This document shows, one piece after another, positions 32,934 through 39,823 of a DNA stretch of 64,000 bases (its first letter is position 1; every line of letters begins with the position of its first letter). Source of the DNA: Caulobacter ginsengisoli (lineage in GTDB: Bacteria; Pseudomonadota; Alphaproteobacteria; Caulobacterales; Caulobacteraceae); assembly GCF_030814835.1 (NCBI RefSeq), contig NZ_JAUSVS010000001.1:563001-627000 (forward strand), read 5' to 3'. The position numbers and the translations under genes are program-made. The notes below the pieces were generated by a model. The model saw nothing but the letters and a program-made list of their open reading frames with translations, made no database searches and was not told the DNA's origin.

Positions 32934-32976
32934 CCCCGTGGGTTGATTCCCCACGCCCATGGTCTAAGCCGTGGGC

Positions 32977-33819
32977 ATGGAAAATCCTCGCACCACCGCC
33001 CTGATCTACGACTTCGACGGCACCCTGGCCCGCGGCAACATGCAGGAGACCAGCTTCATCCCGGCCCTGGGGATGACGCCCAAAGAGTTCTGGAACGACA
33101 CGGTGCGGCCCCGGACCATCGAGTCCGACGGCGACGACATCCTGATGTACATGCAGCTGATGCTGCGCACGGCCAAGCAGGCCGGGCTGACCGTCACCCG
33201 CGAGATGCTGCGCGAACACGGCCGGGACGTGCCGCTGTTCGAGGGCCTGCGGGACATGAGCTGGTTCGAGCGGATCAACGCCTTTGGGGCCAATTATGGC
33301 CTGACCATCAAGCACTACATCCTGTCGAGCGGCCTGCAGGAGATGGTCGAGGGCTGCCCGATCTACCCGGCCTTCGAGCACGTCTTCGCCTCGCACTATG
33401 TCTACAACGCCAAGGGCGAGGCCGAATGGCCGGCGGTGGGCATCAACTACACCACCAAGACCCAGTACCTCTTCCGCATCAACAAGGGGGTCTACAACAA
33501 TTGGGAGCACGAGAAGATCAATCGCTACATACCCGACGAGGAGCGGCCGGTGCCGTTCGAGCGGATGATCTTCGTCGGCGACGGCGACACCGATGTGCCG
33601 ACCATGAAGATGATGCACACCAAGGGCGGCCACTCGATCGCCGTCTACGACCCCAACAACGAGCCCAGTCACCAGACCAAGATCCACCGGCTGATCGCCG
33701 ACGACCGGGTCAACTTCATCGCCGCCGCCGACTACCGCGAGGGCGCGCCGCTGGACCTGATCGTCAAGGGCATCCTGGGCCGCATCGCCATCGCCGAACG
33801 GACCATGCCCCGGGATTGA
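32977..33819 (+). CDS. HAD-superfamily hydrolase
   Basis: A 280-residue protein with the four HAD motifs: LIYDFDGTLARGNM (nucleophile Asp), HYILSSGLQEMVEG (motif II), a conserved lysine probably in the ~220 region, and FVGDGDTDVPTMKMM (motif IV acids). It is a phosphatase-type enzyme; the substrate is unknown. I used the ATG at 32977; a GTG two codons upstream is possible. Its stop lies 9 bases from that of the convergent pYEATS gene. Confidence 0.85.
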   Translation: MENPRTTALIYDFDGTLARGNMQETSFIPALGMTPKEFWNDTVRPRTIESDGDDILMYMQLMLRTAKQAGLTVTREMLREHGRDVPLFEGLRDMSWFERINAFGANYGLTIKHYILSSGLQEMVEGCPIYPAFEHVFASHYVYNAKGEAEWPAVGINYTTKTQYLFRINKGVYNNWEHEKINRYIPDEERPVPFERMIFVGDGDTDVPTMKMMHTKGGHSIAVYDPNNEPSHQTKIHRLIADDRVNFIAAADYREGAPLDLIVKGILGRIAIAERTMPRD

Positions 33820-33828
33820 ACAGGGCGG

Positions 33829-35697
33829 CTAAAGTTCCCGGATGACCTGGGGCGCGTCGGGCAGCAGCGCCAGATCGCATTCCAGCTCGATCCCCTGCGA
33901 TGGGAGCCAGGCGCCAACCGTGAAACCGCCCAGCGCCCGGACGGTCACCGCCGCCTCGTGGCCGCGGAAGGCCACCTTGATCCGACTGGGGCTGAAGGTC
34001 GGGTGCAGGAAGAACTCCACGGCGTCCGAAAAGCTTGGCGGAAGCGTGCGGTCGGCGCGGACGGCCAGTTGGATATCCACCCAGCCTTCCGGTGAGGTTT
34101 CGGTGAAGGCGGCCGTCAGCCTGTAGCCGCCGACCTCGGCGAGGCCGCCGAAGCGGTTTTTGTTAGGGTCGTCAACGACGGTGACGGGGCGCTCGAGCGC
34201 GGGGGCTTCCAGCGACCTGGCGGCGCCGGCGGAGGCCAGGGCGATGCCCGAGCCATCGATCCGATCGGCTGCCACCGTCCCCGAGGCCATCTCCTGCGGC
34301 ATGGTCGCCTTGGGGGGCTCGGTCTGGGCGGCGGCGTTGCTGACGCTGATGCCGGCGGCGTCCACACGGCCTTGGAACAGCAGGCGGGCATAGCGCTCAT
34401 TCATGCTGCCTGTGCTGCGATATGGCGCGATCTGGCCCTGCGCCCGCAGCTTGTTGTCGGCCGCCAGCCAGGAGAAGATCGCCCCGGCGGCGCGTTGCAG
34501 GGGCACGTCGCTGCGCCACTTGTCGAGTTGGGTTTGGGCCAGCTCGGTGAGCGTCGCATCAAAGCCCTTAAGCCCCGCCAGCCCGCCCAGCATCTCGCCC
34601 ATCAGCTGGTTGGTCGCGGCGAAGTAGGGGGCGCCCAGCCGCTGCGCAATGCCCAGGGCCGTCAGCGCGCCACGGGCCGCCTCTTCGCGATCGGAACCCC
34701 TGCCGGCCTGATTGAGATGGTGGCGGGCGAGGATGACATGGGTGTCGGAGGCCCATGGATAGCGCTCGGCGAGCAGTGGGCCCCATTCCGGCGGCTTGGG
34801 ACCGAAGACCTCCGGGAAGCGGATGGTCAGCAGGGTGGCCACCATGGCCGCCCAGGCGTCTTCTTCCAGTCCATCGATGAACCGGGCGATCGAGCCGCCG
34901 CGCAGGACGTCGGCATAGACCGCGGAGGCTTCCTCCGCGACTCCCGCCTGCAGCGCCCGCATCAGGGCCCGGCGTTCCGGATCCAGCGGCGTCACCTGGA
35001 CGGCGATGTCGGCGCTGATCAGCGGCGAAGCCTGGAAGGATACTCGTGTTCCGCCCAGGAAGGCCGGGACCATCATCCGCTCGGTCCGCACGCCCTCCAG
35101 CGCCATGGAAAGCCGTAGCCGGGGATGGCGCTTCAACGCATCGGGGGACGAGGCGATCAGCACGTTCAGCACGCCGGCTTCGAGTTCGACGGTGGGGGCG
35201 CCGTCGGCGTAGGGCGTCCAGCCGCCCAGGTCGGCCATGTCCTCGTCCTGCGACAGTCCAACGGAAAGCATGCGGGATGAGGCCGATTCCGGGCTGCGCG
35301 CCGGCGCCGACCAGACCTCCGACCGCGTAACGGGGGGGGGCGGCGGCGCTTCGGTGGACGCGGGGCGGCCACGCTGCAGGCTCTCGACGGCAGCCTGCAG
35401 ATTCCCGCTCTCGATCCCGGAGAAGGCGGCTACGTCACCGCCTGCCGCCAGGACCGCATAGAGCGGCATGGTCACGGTGTTGGCGACCTCGGGCTTCACC
35501 TCGAAGACGTAGGAACGGGCGCGCAGGCCGACCGGGGCCACCTCGGCGGAATAGAAGCCCGGCTGGATGTCGTCGGTCTCGAAGATCCTGTGGTTGGGGG
35601 TCGCCACCCATTCGGTCAGCACGCCATCGGCGCTCGCGACCGTCACCCGCCCGACTGAGAGGTCTCCTGGAGCTTCGAATGTCAGACGCGTGCTCAT
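33829..35697 (-). CDS. pYEATS-domain protein of a caspase conflict operon
   Basis: A 622-residue protein and the last gene of the operon. The C-terminal ~113 residues match prokaryotic YEATS domains: NRFGGLAEVGGYRLTA, VEFFLHPTFSPSRIKVAF and the final GGFTVGAWLPSQGIELECDL with LPDAPQ. The N-terminal ~95 residues look like a beta-sandwich. The middle (~220-420) is mostly helical, possibly repeats. pYEATS domains are described next to caspase and other effector genes in NTP-dependent prokaryotic conflict systems, where they may bind modified targets. The ATG at 35697 overlaps the caspase stop (ATGA). Assignment rests on a recognisable pattern without alignment. Confidence 0.75.
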   Translation of the reverse strand: MSTRLTFEAPGDLSVGRVTVASADGVLTEWVATPNHRIFETDDIQPGFYSAEVAPVGLRARSYVFEVKPEVANTVTMPLYAVLAAGGDVAAFSGIESGNLQAAVESLQRGRPASTEAPPPPPVTRSEVWSAPARSPESASSRMLSVGLSQDEDMADLGGWTPYADGAPTVELEAGVLNVLIASSPDALKRHPRLRLSMALEGVRTERMMVPAFLGGTRVSFQASPLISADIAVQVTPLDPERRALMRALQAGVAEEASAVYADVLRGGSIARFIDGLEEDAWAAMVATLLTIRFPEVFGPKPPEWGPLLAERYPWASDTHVILARHHLNQAGRGSDREEAARGALTALGIAQRLGAPYFAATNQLMGEMLGGLAGLKGFDATLTELAQTQLDKWRSDVPLQRAAGAIFSWLAADNKLRAQGQIAPYRSTGSMNERYARLLFQGRVDAAGISVSNAAAQTEPPKATMPQEMASGTVAADRIDGSGIALASAGAARSLEAPALERPVTVVDDPNKNRFGGLAEVGGYRLTAAFTETSPEGWVDIQLAVRADRTLPPSFSDAVEFFLHPTFSPSRIKVAFRGHEAAVTVRALGGFTVGAWLPSQGIELECDLALLPDAPQVIREL

Positions 35698-36890
35698 GGG
35701 ATCAGGATCCGCTGGTCGAAAATGGGCATGTCCGGGCTGAACTTGGCCTCGTACGAGATCCCGTTGTCCGCCGCGACCGCCACATGCATGTCCCGGCTGG
35801 CCGGCACCCAGGCCAGCCATTCCGTCTGCGCCCGCAAGGGTCGCTGATCGACGACAGGCGGCGCGCGGTCGGGGCTGGCGAAGATGCTCAGGTCATAGTT
35901 CGAGATGGCCGGGGCCGGGTTGGTGAAAACCACAATCGGCACGATGGGCCGGGCCGGGGCGACGATGGGGAAGGGTCCGGTAGGGAAGGCCGACTGCGTG
36001 GGCTCGAAGGGCAGTTCGTCCTCGCGCCAGTCGGTCCGCAATCCGTGCAGGTAGATGATGTCCTCAATAATGGAGGCCGGTTGAACAACCCATCGCCCGA
36101 GACGGGAGCGAACCGCGGCCCCGTCCAGAGCCAGGCACAGGGTCTGCGTAAACCGACCAAGCCGGAGGTTGGGGTTATCGGCGCAGGGCCCGTCATAGGC
36201 CTTCAGCCCCGCCGAGGTGGCGCTGAGCATGAAGACCTTTTCCCGGGTCAATTGGGGCTGGAACGGGTCGAGGGGCGCGATGAACTGGGCGACCCATTTG
36301 GCTTTCGACAGTTCCAGTTTCGGAGAGAACTCCTGGCAGGCGTCGAGAAAGAAGAAGCCGGCGCTGATTTCGGTCACCTGCTTGAAGGCGTTGGCGGTCT
36401 CGCCGACGTTCAGGAACCCGCCCCAGGGATGCATCTTGCGGGTGTTGATATCCTGCAGGAACAGCAGCGGATCGGTGCCGAGCCGGGCGCCGTGGCCGCA
36501 GGCGTAGAAAAACGCCACATCGCCCGGCCGCTTTTGGAGCTGTCCCAGCCAATCCGCGCCAGCGGCCTCGACATTGGCCACGGTCGGCGGATCGGGCGGC
36601 GCGGCGGGCTCGTTGGCCCAGGCATAAGGCGTCGCGCCGGCGGCGTGCTGCGCCGGCCCGATGAGGACCTCCAATGTCGCCAGCGGAGCGTCGAGGTTGT
36701 CTTTGTTCTCCAGCAGCCAGTCGCACATCCGCTTGGCGCTGTCCGCCGCGCTGGCCAGGTCGGGCACGGCGCGAAGGTCCTTGTTGAAGCCCTTGCCGGG
36801 CTTGGCGTCGGGATAGGTCCCGACTCCGATAACGAAGGCGTGGGTCGCCGGCTTTCCGGGCTGAACAGGACGCTCGAAGATCAGGGTCAT
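35694..36890 (-). CDS. Caspase-like (C14) protease with C-terminal extension
   Basis: A 398-residue protein. The N-terminus HAFVIGVGTYPD is the first strand of the caspase fold. The catalytic dyad is visible: His133 in FFYACGHGARLG and Cys185 in GFFFLDACQEF. Residues ~230-320 are a further helical part with LSATSAGLKAYDGP. A Pro-rich segment follows (~310-320) and a C-terminal beta-rich domain from ~330. It lies 3 bases after the alpha/beta hydrolase stop. Bacterial caspase homologues often act as death effectors in antiphage or conflict systems. The substrate and trigger are unknown. Confidence 0.85.
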   Translation of the reverse strand: MTLIFERPVQPGKPATHAFVIGVGTYPDAKPGKGFNKDLRAVPDLASAADSAKRMCDWLLENKDNLDAPLATLEVLIGPAQHAAGATPYAWANEPAAPPDPPTVANVEAAGADWLGQLQKRPGDVAFFYACGHGARLGTDPLLFLQDINTRKMHPWGGFLNVGETANAFKQVTEISAGFFFLDACQEFSPKLELSKAKWVAQFIAPLDPFQPQLTREKVFMLSATSAGLKAYDGPCADNPNLRLGRFTQTLCLALDGAAVRSRLGRWVVQPASIIEDIIYLHGLRTDWREDELPFEPTQSAFPTGPFPIVAPARPIVPIVVFTNPAPAISNYDLSIFASPDRAPPVVDQRPLRAQTEWLAWVPASRDMHVAVAADNGISYEAKFSPDMPIFDQRILIP

Positions 36891-36893
36891 CGA

Positions 36894-38009
36894 TCAGATC
36901 ACGTGAAGGTCTTGCAGGCGCTTGCGGGCGCGGGCGTAGAACTGCGGGCGCTTGAAGTAGGTGGTGTGGGCTGAGATCAGGCCGGTGACCGAGTCGAACT
37001 GGAAGTCCTGAGCGTTGGCGAACATCGGCGTGGCGCGGAAGCCGAACAGATCGATGGGATCGAAGATGTTGTGCCAGGCTTTCACATTGGCCGGGCCCGG
37101 GGTCGAGGTCGCGCCGGCCGATCGCTTGAAGTCGAACAGGCCCAGTTCCTCGAAGAAGCCAGGCTGCGACCCGACAGTCATCAGCAGGTCCACCGACAGA
37201 TCGGCCGGCAACCCGGCCTGGGCGGGCGAGGACAGCATGTCGTAGAGGATGACCCCGCCCAGGCTGTGACCCAGCAGGACCAGCTTTTCGCCAGACGCCT
37301 TGGCGGCGGTGTGGGCGGCGACGATCTCCTTTCCCACCCGCGCGCGGATGGCGGTTCGGACGCCGTCCTGGGGCGGGCCCTTCAGATAGACGAAGATGTC
37401 GCCCAGGAACCGCCCGACCAGAGGGTTCAGATCGTCGCGGAAGGCGTTGGAAATGCTGGTGGAAACGCTGTTGCGAGCCCGGTCGGCCAGAGCGCTTACC
37501 GCGCCTTTGATCTTGTCCCCGATCGCGCCATAGCCGGCGTTGTCGCCGAACTGGCCAATGTTGAAGATCAGCTCTTCGTCGGTGGCGGAGGCGGCGACCT
37601 GGGGCTGGCCACCGGCGGCGATGGCCTTGGTCACGGCCCTGAACGCCCTGATATCGTCAGCCGTCAGGTCCTCGTTCGAAAGGTCGGCGCGGTCGACCAG
37701 GGTGGCGTAGACCGCGTCCAGGGCCGTGGCTGGGTCAGCGGTGGCCAACTCCGCGATGGCGCCGCCCTCGGGATCGCTGACAGTGAGCGCGCCCAGCGCG
37801 CTGTAGGCCGAAACGCCGGCCGCGCCGGCGAACGAGCCGCCGCCGTTCGACATGGCCGGGACCAGATCGCCCCACCGCGGTGAGCGGATGTTGAGAGGGG
37901 CGCCCTGGAACAAGACCTGCTTGAACAGGGCGTCGCGGTTGCGTTCTTCCTGATCGTAGGCGGGGCCACTCCGCGTCGCCACACCATGAACGAAGACCAT
38001 CTGGACCAT
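36894..38009 (-). CDS. Alpha/beta hydrolase (lipase/esterase-like) of the caspase operon
   Basis: A 371-residue protein and the first gene of the operon. The fold start MVQMVFVHGVATR gives the oxyanion histidine/glycine, Ser249 lies in the LLGHSLGGVILYD nucleophile elbow, an Asp in WHNIFDPIDLFGF (Asp317 or Asp320), and His348 in ISAHTTYF. The N-terminal ~240 residues form a long, mainly helical insert. There is no signal peptide, so it is cytosolic. The ATG at 38009 has AGGGGAC upstream. Linked to the caspase and pYEATS genes, it may process a signalling or effector substrate. Confidence 0.83.
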   Translation of the reverse strand: MVQMVFVHGVATRSGPAYDQEERNRDALFKQVLFQGAPLNIRSPRWGDLVPAMSNGGGSFAGAAGVSAYSALGALTVSDPEGGAIAELATADPATALDAVYATLVDRADLSNEDLTADDIRAFRAVTKAIAAGGQPQVAASATDEELIFNIGQFGDNAGYGAIGDKIKGAVSALADRARNSVSTSISNAFRDDLNPLVGRFLGDIFVYLKGPPQDGVRTAIRARVGKEIVAAHTAAKASGEKLVLLGHSLGGVILYDMLSSPAQAGLPADLSVDLLMTVGSQPGFFEELGLFDFKRSAGATSTPGPANVKAWHNIFDPIDLFGFRATPMFANAQDFQFDSVTGLISAHTTYFKRPQFYARARKRLQDLHVI

Positions 38010-38073
38010 TGGAACGTCCCCTGAAGTGCTGAAAAACTCTGATACCTTCCACCCTGATGCGCAACTGTTGGCT

Positions 38074-38087
38074 GTGACCGCGGTCAC
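38074..38087. promoter_or_regulatory. CRP/FNR-family-like palindrome (GTGA-N6-TCAC) upstream of the caspase operon
   Basis: GTGACCGCGGTCAC is a perfect 14-base palindrome, 65 bases before the operon's first ATG (38009). It fits the CRP-type half-site pair and is flanked by T on the left (TGTGA). It may regulate the conflict operon or the small divergent reading frame at 38124. Confidence 0.45.
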
Positions 38088-38123
38088 GTTCGCGAGCGAG
38101 AGCGGGCGTCGCTCGATGCGCGG

Positions 38124-38306
38124 ATGATGGCCGAGGCTAGTAGATCGGCGGCACGGCGACGGTCAGCTCGCCCAGCAGCGCTTGCCGACGATCCGCTGGG
38201 CGGCGAGCCCGACCTGGTCGAGGTGTCGGTACTGCGCCGCAGAACCGCCCGGGGCCTGGGCGTCAAATGGTTCCTGGAGCAGATACGCCGGGCGGCCGAA
38301 ATCTGA
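38124..38306 (+). CDS. Small reading frame of unknown status
   Basis: A 60-codon Arg-rich frame (MMAEASRSAARRRSARPA to FLEQIRRAAEI) lies in the 299-base gap between the caspase operon and ppx. It has no recognisable domain and no clear ribosome-binding site. The second ATG at 38127 is equally possible. It may be a small protein, a gene remnant, or chance in GC-rich DNA. Confidence 0.25.
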   Translation: MMAEASRSAARRRSARPAALADDPLGGEPDLVEVSVLRRRTARGLGVKWFLEQIRRAAEI

Positions 38307-38308
38307 GG

Positions 38309-39823
38309 TCAGGCGCCGTCGCCGCCCACCCGCAGCTTCACATTCAGGAGGCTGGCCAGCGTCCCGGCCCGCCGCGAGGTCTGGTCGCCGAGCAGCAGGT
38401 CGCTGCGCTGCGGGTCGGTGGTCAGCAGCAGGCGGTCGCCTTCCAGCCTCAGGCGGGTGTTGACCAGCAGGGCCGGGGTGCGGGCCGTCAGGTCGCAGCC
38501 CAGGCGGATGGCGGCGCCTAGGGCCCGGGCCCGGCGGCGGGCGTCGTCGGGGAGCAGGCGGGCGATGGTGGCGGCCTCGGGGATGGTCGAGGCGCTGGTG
38601 TGGCGGGCGAAGGCGGCGACCGACAGGAAGGCCCGCTCGGCGTGGTTCTGGCCGGCGACCGGGGCGCGCAGAACCTGCTCGAAGACCAGGTCGGCGCGAT
38701 GGTCGGGGTGAAGCCGGGCACCCAGGTCCGCCAGGCGGCAGGCGGCGGCGCGCAGCACGCCGTCACGGCCGTCCATCACCGGGGCGAGGGCGTTGAACAC
38801 CGGGGCCAGCCAGGCCTCCAGCATGGGCCCGAGCGCCGCGTCGGCGCCGGTGCGGGCGCTGAGCGCCGCGCAGCCTTCGACCAGCGGGTCCAGAGGGGCG
38901 GTAGAGGCGTCCAGGGCCTCGAACAGCAGGCCTTCGCGCACGCCATAGGCCGACAGTTCGACCTTCTGGATGTCCAGGGCCTGGATCAGCCGCTCCAGCA
39001 CCACGGCGGCGTGGGGCAGGGTCTCGGCCCGCTTCTTGGAGACGCCCTCGACGGTTTCCAGGCTGCGGCGCGACTGGCCGGCGACGAAGCGGCAGGCTTC
39101 CAGCGCCTCGGTCCGGCGGATTTCATACTGATGCACGACCCGCAGCGGATAGCCGGCCATGTGCATGTGGATGAGAGCCAGGTTGCGCCAGGCGCCGCCG
39201 ACCGCGTGGAAGGTGTCGGTGCGCAGGTTGCCAAACCCGGCCAGTCGCTCGTCCACGGCTTTGCGCAGGATGTCGGGGTTGTGCTCGGGGAAGGGCCCGA
39301 AGGCGAAGGGGCCCAGCGGCAGGGTTACCCCCGGTCCGGCGCCGTCCGGTCCGATGGGGGTCAATTCCAGGCTGGCGCCGCCCAGATCGCCGACCAGGCC
39401 GCGCGAGTCCGGCGCCCCGGCCAGCACGCCCAGGGCCGCATAGCGCGCCTCTTCCGCGCCGCTGAGGATGCGCAAGGAGAGGCCCGTCTCGGCCTGCACC
39501 CGCTCGACGAAGTCCTGGCCGTCGGCGGCGTCGCGGACGGCGGCGGTGGCGGCGGTGAAGATCTCTTCCGGATTGGCCGCCTCGATGACCGCCCGGAAGC
39601 GCTTGAGGGCCGCCATGGCCTGGGCGACGCCGTCGGGGGCGAGGCGGCCGGTCTGGCCGATATCGCGGCCCAGGCCCGCCAGCACCTTCTCGTTATAGAC
39701 CGTCCAGATCGAGCGGCCCTCGATGCGATAGAGCACCAGGCGCACCGAGTTGGAGCCCACATCGATGACGGCCGCGTCCAGCGGGACTGGGTTCATCGGG
39801 GGGCTAACGGCGTGGGCCGACAT
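38309..39823 (-). CDS. ppx: Exopolyphosphatase/GppA phosphatase
   Basis: A 504-residue ASKHA-fold phosphatase that shortens polyphosphate or converts pppGpp to ppGpp. [19 protein letters not shown] (phosphate loop 1), the glutamate-containing [13 protein letters not shown] segment, [13 protein letters not shown] (phosphate loop 2) and VGGAWRNLA are visible, followed by a C-terminal helical/HD-like part ([19 protein letters not shown]). The start is either 39823 (20-base overlap with ppk) or MNPVPLD at 39796; no clear ribosome-binding site favours either. It is a ppk partner for polyphosphate turnover. Confidence 0.92.

Follow-up and report, generated by a model that had tools for sequence, protein, structure and literature searches.

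What kind of system is formed by an alpha/beta hydrolase, a caspase-family protease and a protein ending in a prokaryotic YEATS (pYEATS) domain when all three are encoded side by side in Caulobacter ginsengisoli? We addressed this question for positions 33829-38009 of a 64,000-nt stretch of contig NZ_JAUSVS010000001.1 (the window), where three minus-strand genes are transcribed from 38009 to 33829. A preliminary description, made from the letters alone, had presented them as a compact conflict system akin to the predicted NTP-dependent ones, with the pYEATS protein as a putative target reader. Sequence comparisons favour reading the locus as a Canu-like caspase/scaffold module where the metallo-beta-lactamase (MBL) pro-nuclease is replaced by an alpha/beta hydrolase encoded upstream. 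The conflict-system reading was retained insofar as this is an accessory caspase operon, and was corrected in that the nearest known system is Canu and not the NTP-dependent systems.

Gene organization and domain content

The open reading frames (ORFs) and their residues bore out the tight coupling, the junctions and the catalytic residues described earlier. The hydrolase and caspase genes are separated by a gap of 3 bases, the caspase gene and that of the third protein share an ATGA overlap, and the operon is compact, with no NTPase among the three genes. In the hydrolase, Ser249 lies in GHSLGG and His348 in AHTTYF; in the caspase, His133 lies in CGHG and Cys185 in DACQ. Longer ORFs are possible (GTG at 38087, ATG at 35820); the start codons of relatives, whose ends were picked from ORF or match starts, align with the shorter forms. 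No sigma-70-like promoter was found within 37900-38400.

The caspase assignment held, with a Peptidase_C14 match of 25.4 bits (Pfam cut-off 21.4) and a match to the PADLOC caspase model (39.4 bits). His133 and Cys185 were invariant in 13 of 13 aligned caspases, and a simple pattern search of a larger set of distinct caspases revealed GHG in 31/31 and D-x-C in 30/31, the miss being L102 (homologous loci are numbered with the prefix L). Among solved structures, the best match to the caspase alone was metacaspase-9 (E 0.14), and a search with the caspase profile gave no match at 0.01.

The pYEATS assignment also held: PF20305 matched residues 541-610 of the third protein with 50.3 bits (Pfam cut-off 26.9). 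This true pYEATS domain nevertheless accounts for merely the last ~110 of 622 residues, the helical middle being CanB-like, so that the earlier account of this component was incomplete. The AlphaFold2 model revealed two beta-sandwiches, a helical region, a disordered linker and the C-terminal pYEATS domain (Table 1), and Foldseek matched it to YEATS2, Yaf9 and Taf14 at probabilities of 0.91-1.00 and to the tetratricopeptide repeat (TPR) protein 2pl2 at 0.99.

The hydrolase gave a sub-threshold match in Pfam (DUF676, 19.5 bits; cut-off 20.3). Ser249, Asp320 and His348 were invariant in 12 of 12 hydrolases. The top Foldseek match of the hydrolase model was a B. subtilis lipase (probability 0.99, E 0.011), with a Nir2 domain also matched (E >0.01), and the hydrolase profile retrieved an esterase from solved structures at E 0.0022, together with weaker matches. 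These data point to a Ser-Asp-His triad on an alpha/beta hydrolase core and to a putative lipase activity.

Comparison with Canu and other known systems

Canu (caspase-nuclease, CanABC) is reported to consist of a CanA caspase and CanB, which form a complex that converts the MBL pro-nuclease CanC into an active nuclease; in CanC, insertions that carry conserved Gly cut sites act as a gate, KaeCanA has a C-terminal Ig-like fold, and the system protects E. coli against T4, with escaper mutations mapping to the phage helicase gene dda (PMC12799240). Searching with the caspase, we found four plasmid loci (L023-L026) encoding a caspase, an uncharacterized protein and an MBL hydrolase in a row, which we called canu from their architecture. 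A hidden Markov model (HMM) of six trio caspases matched the caspases of these loci at 74-95 bits. An HMM of their four CanB-like proteins recovered 11 of the 13 third-type proteins encoded in hydrolase loci, missing L016 and L027 and matching the window protein at 35.4 bits; everything that it matched was a third-type protein or a fusion. In the opposite direction, an HMM built from trio third proteins matched one of the four CanB-like proteins (19.5 bits), and hhalign of the two sets gave a probability of 94.9% and an E-value of 4.5e-8. Among eight further MBL loci, a caspase, a CanB-like part and an MBL protein were found in L098, L099, L100 and L102 and a CanB-like fragment in L101; the MBL loci examined are a minority of the 66 MBL records. 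One MBL protein of loci of the L023-L026 type, used as a query, matched genes on plasmids that carry the annotation Avs1a MBL hydrolase.

Like Canu, the window contains a three-gene operon in which the gene immediately after that of a caspase with conserved His and Cys encodes a beta-sandwich/TPR-like protein; the two proteins are homologous to their counterparts in L023-L026 (CanB-likeness being judged against these canu-architecture loci, not KaeCanB), and the partner enzyme carries a long insertion. In contrast to the downstream MBL nuclease of Canu, the partner in the window is an upstream alpha/beta hydrolase, no MBL HMM match being found in the window, and the CanB-like protein additionally bears pYEATS.

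This pairing was not confined to the window. In 19 of 21 hydrolase loci, a caspase lies directly downstream and a CanB-like part was detected by at least one profile, some profiles having been built from the same loci; of the 18 plasmid records matching the hydrolase, 11 were covered, none of them actinobacterial. Among these 19 loci, L019, L083 and L086 encode the caspase and the CanB-like part as one fusion, and in L085 the contig ends within the CanB-like part; in the congeneric L083 and L086, the fusion measures 729-740 amino acids and lies downstream of the hydrolase. In a caspase tree of 28 rows (L015, L017 and L018 dropped), lipase- and MBL-linked caspases interdigitate, with 3 changes overall and 2 forced by starred branches.

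A second comparison concerns the VMAP systems, in which caspase-bearing proteins are described as always having an alpha/beta hydrolase neighbour, the two being proposed to operate together; related hydrolases are described in GAP1-N1 systems (Kaur 2020, PMC7159879). The window resembles these VMAP/MoxR-vWA systems in gene neighbourhood, its caspase gene lying next to one for an alpha/beta hydrolase, and differs in that the trio lacks MoxR, vWA, VMAP or GTPase components and the partner is CanB-like. The four neighbouring genes included in the scan are rnd, HAD, ppx and ppk, and none is of the MoxR or vWA type. We also considered the third protein as a VMAP and rejected this assignment; it matched CanB-like proteins instead, with no pointer to VMAP, whose profiles were not run. 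None of the literature matches listed describes the hydrolase-caspase-pYEATS trio in its title or the start of its abstract; the 2020 paper on prokaryotic YEATS domains (J Bact) may already list it.

Some individual loci had additional neighbours. In L025 (4877-5923), a Tle1-like phospholipase gene (PF09994, E 2.3e-71) lies directly upstream of the canu-architecture caspase, possibly forming a double-effector locus. A patatin-like gene is placed divergently in the canu-type L026, and an S8 peptidase and ATPase gene pair was observed near the caspase operons of the L016, L017 and L025 plasmids.

Recurrence of the ordered trio

Recurrence in other genomes, on which the earlier proposal depended, was found. 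The ordered trio with pYEATS is present on Rhizobium ruizarguesonis plasmid CP140872 (L002) and in four full-length homologues, from Pseudomonas sp. dw_612, Porphyrobacter sp. TH134, a Rhodopila metagenome-assembled genome and Bordetella sp. LUAb4, these four being drawn from 29 loci of a genome-collection scan restricted to two peptide patterns. The junctions in these five loci range from -4 to +10 bp. Since the ordered trio recurs in five named genera, a chance arrangement is excluded. A scan of genome contigs with a single protein as the query gave no match, whereas an alignment query did. Upstream of the Bordetella trio (L030, 4411-7446), we observed an RHS-repeat ORF of 1011 amino acids with a sub-threshold ADP-ribosyltransferase match.

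A divergent trio with the same gene order was found in L006, L034, L035 and L036, from Sinorhizobium, Sandarakinorhabdus, Pseudorhodobacter and a Sphingomonadales genome. It encodes a different hydrolase with an AHSAGS or GHSAGS motif, a different caspase and a third protein whose similarity is confined to the C-terminal pYEATS. Two further divergent loci are incomplete, L032 being cut at the contig end and L004 having a broken-up caspase. All 12 pYEATS and caspase loci with a 5' flank, the window included, encode a hydrolase, and none of the 12 showed an MBL HMM match; L031, whose contig begins inside the caspase, was left out of this count. In the pYEATS loci L005 and L037-L055, some of them on short contigs, a hydrolase or caspase was not found by these profiles.

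The hydrolase insertion as a candidate gate

The AlphaFold2 model of the hydrolase was mostly confident at residues 1-50 and 221-280, and its predicted local distance difference test (pLDDT) score fell below 50 at residues 53-98 and 133-202, within the long insertion. Nine CanC-like proteins carry E-x-[FYL]-[GAS] in their own insertion. When 17 hydrolases were scored against shuffles with a CanC-loop-site matrix, the insertion gave p 0.006 and the core p 0.91. These scores omit the near-copies L015, L018 and L086, the split L017 and the second hydrolase family, and the matrix omits the MBL proteins L056, L103, L104 and L105, which are without a caspase match or CanB-like neighbour. With a slack of 3 residues, the top aligned place corresponded to window residues 154-160 (mean 3.27, z 2.64). 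Gly at this place is kept in 19 of 20 hydrolases, and in 15 of these an aromatic residue or Leu comes before it. The lone exception, L021, is without a caspase. Such CanC-like loop sites in a poorly predicted insertion suggest a pro-lipase that would be unlocked by the caspase. The exact site in the window copy is ambiguous, and we regard this result as a lead rather than a demonstration.

The pYEATS domain as a possible reader

In animals and yeast, YEATS-type domains read chemical marks on proteins. Prokaryotic YEATS domains were reportedly named by Burroughs and Aravind in 2020 (J Bact); our literature search for 'pYEATS' or 'prokaryotic YEATS' found no paper. In YEATS2, the contacts to an acetyl-lysine peptide are described as H259, S261, Y262, W282, G283, E284, F285 and Y313, with Y262 and W282 forming the aromatic sandwich (PMC5651844). 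HMMER aligned the pYEATS domains with YEATS2 at E 0.001. Upon alignment, the window domain retained five of the seven ligand residues inside the aligned region, as H565, T567, F568, G590 and F592 correspond to H259, S261, Y262, G283 and F285, respectively. In contrast, W282 is replaced by Leu589 and E284 by Gly591, and Y313 falls outside the alignment. Across 30 aligned pYEATS domains (L044, L046, L049, L052 and L053 were left out), H-x-[TS]-F was invariant at its His and Phe, as was G-x-F, and the position equivalent to W282 was aromatic in 26 of the 30. The window copy has the first aromatic of the sandwich, F568, and Leu589 in place of the second. Because of the W282 to L589 and E284 to G591 replacements, acyl-lysine reading by this copy is uncertain; of the target reader proposed earlier, the YEATS-profile domain stands and the reader role does not stand with the same certainty.

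As in the predicted immune systems with PF20305, pYEATS is C-terminal on a longer protein; the window differs in that this protein is a CanB-like scaffold beside a caspase and a hydrolase. Among three other pYEATS proteins scanned, one carried YLATT and one SIR2. Six Chryseobacterium genomes (L047-L050, L052 and L053) encode short pYEATS proteins, of which L047, the sole one scanned, has a YLATT three-transmembrane domain.

Insertion site and distribution

The trio lies between a HAD phosphatase-like gene and ppx, in keeping with the accessory insert proposed earlier. A HAD match was found in 9 of 31 congeners searched, the window's own included. The site is empty in three of the other eight, where the HAD-ppx spacing is 34 (L093), 89 (L092) and 133 bp (L095); L094 has a spacer of 917 bp, ppx was not found in the stretches taken from L090, L091 and L096, and it was not found in L097 either, where the HAD match is weaker. 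The GC content at third codon positions was 0.85-0.87 in the trio versus 0.92-0.94 in the four flanking genes. As a sign of transposition, boundary repeats within 33600-38500 were short and degenerate only, among the matches listed.

Among 75 genomes of the genus, only that of the window was found to encode the whole third protein, and a second genome matched in the pYEATS part only; a class sample gave 2 of 385 genomes, one being the window's own, which has a single pYEATS match. The hydrolase is present in 4 of the 75 genomes, own included. When 398 genomes of the phylum were searched with a hydrolase profile, 25 gave a match, and in only three (own, G602 and G420) did the match span nearly the full profile. 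Homology, gene order and the empty site establish the trio as a recurrent accessory system. A phage or viral origin was considered and rejected; the caspase had no match in phage records, and the hydrolase and third protein had no confirmed relative in viral contigs.

Proposed mechanism and alternatives

From homology and some plasmid contexts, a conflict or defence role is plausible. Our preferred reading, which draws on sequence comparison and which we hold at a probability of roughly 0.55, is an accessory abortive-infection-type defence cassette related to Canu, in which the caspase would unlock a putative lipase. In the course of events that we infer, the scaffold would bind the caspase in a complex and restrain it until a trigger arrives. 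The scaffold would sense this trigger, possibly via pYEATS, and the activated caspase would cut the hydrolase inside its long insertion and open the active site. Once released, this lipase or phospholipase may harm the membrane, so that the infected cell dies or stops growing. Alpha/beta hydrolases are listed among effectors acting on membrane lipids (Kaur 2021). If our preferred reading holds, the Canu chassis would be modular at both ends: around a constant caspase and scaffold, the effector would be either a nuclease or a lipase, and a pYEATS sensor would be present or absent. The reading predicts that a lipase unlocked by proteolysis serves against phages, so that the pro-enzyme principle would apply to membrane enzymes as well as to nucleases, and the trio would be a tractable setting for asking what a prokaryotic YEATS domain reads. 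A bolder version, in which pYEATS reads an acyl mark on an infected-cell or phage protein and releases the scaffold-held caspase, which cuts the phospholipase gate so that the membrane is dissolved, on a chassis that swaps nuclease and lipase effectors, seems to us improbable in its full form.

Several observations weigh against the cassette reading. The comparison with Canu was made against loci named from their architecture, and not against KaeCanABC itself. The approximately unbiased (AU) test does not reject a tree that unites the lipase-linked caspases in one clade (p 0.085), and the caspase tree has long branches that meet, so repeated effector exchange is not established. The AlphaFold2 models were built on 5 rows, with pLDDT of 68.6 for the third protein and 57.0 for the hydrolase, and their Foldseek E-values were never below 0.001. 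PADLOC gave no match for the hydrolase or third protein; of 10 proteins encoded next to chromosomal relatives, it matched only one, and that weakly. E284 of YEATS2 is likewise not kept in the window pYEATS. The hydrolases of L020 and L021 are without a caspase or CanB-like part, and L020 nevertheless keeps the Gly. The cut-site comparison was exploratory, having been run after the resemblance had been seen, and did not use the published cut-site logo; Gly occupies the compared position in only 6 of 9 CanC-like sites, and a second peak at 318-322 is close (3.05 vs 3.27). The best single sites are scattered, lying at about 184 (window numbering) in L027-L030, at about 157 in L016, L020 and L084, and at residue 69, not 161, in the window copy, where the match alone has p 0.134.

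The alternative that survives best, although we consider it doubtful, accepts the same module and makes the hydrolase a constitutively active regulator, or an enzyme that makes or removes a lipid or acyl signal; the caspase would kill and pYEATS would sense the acyl product. The constant hydrolase neighbour reported for VMAP caspases (Kaur 2020, PMC7159879), the hydrolase in all 12 pYEATS and caspase loci examined and the two hydrolase loci without a caspase fit this arrangement. The Canu partner enzyme is reported as a proteolytically activated effector (PMC12799240), and the CanC-like sites of the insertion score above shuffles; both argue instead for the unlocked lipase. Distinctly less probable is a stress- or plasmid-related programmed-death module whose target is not phages. 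Many matching plasmid records in our plasmid collection are predicted conjugative (7/8, 17/22 and 8/18 in three match sets), which agrees with it, as does the near absence of PADLOC matches among the chromosomal neighbour proteins, whereas Canu is reported as anti-phage with escapers in dda (PMC12799240), and restriction, TIR, CHAT or S8-ATPase genes adjoin some hydrolase or canu-type plasmid loci. Least probable of all is a remnant of a larger NTP-dependent system of the VMAP/MoxR-vWA type with its NTPase lost or acting in trans, as the hydrolase-caspase pairs of VMAP systems, the related GAP1-N1 hydrolases (Kaur 2020, PMC7159879) and a MoxR ATPase near L105, an MBL locus without a caspase match, are set against a trio that is contiguous without an intervening NTPase in 6 loci (flanks scanned in part) and a third protein that matches CanB-like proteins.

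Features of the locus

Table 1. Coordinates of the trio, its predicted domains and candidate sites, and the bordering genes.
Feature	Position in window	Strand	Remarks
Alpha/beta hydrolase (lipase-like), candidate effector	36894..38009	-	371 aa from ATG 38009; Ser249, Asp320, His348
Caspase-family protease	35694..36890	-	398 aa; His133/Cys185
CanB-like scaffold protein with C-terminal pYEATS	33829..35697	-	622 aa
Hydrolase insertion, residues 53-215	37365..37853	-	Helices and loops, for the most part modelled with low confidence; possible gate or lid
Candidate caspase processing site, residues 156-164 including Gly161	37518..37544	-	Aligned Gly, CanC-loop matrix
Second candidate processing site	hydrolase residues 69-75	-	Best single matrix match of the window
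Two N-terminal beta-sandwich domains, third protein residues 1-76 and 142-237	34987..35697	-	AlphaFold2
TPR-like helical region, third protein residues 240-400	34498..34980	-	Homologous to CanB-like proteins
pYEATS domain, residues 513-622	33832..34161	-	H565, T567, F568, L589, G590, F592
HAD phosphatase-like gene, left border of insert	32971..33819	+	Pfam, congener comparison
ppx, right border of insert	38309..39823	-	Pfam, congener comparison

In the ~300 bp that separate the start of the hydrolase gene from the stop of ppx (38010-38308), inspection by eye revealed a short plus-strand open-frame stretch that may be a gene remnant.

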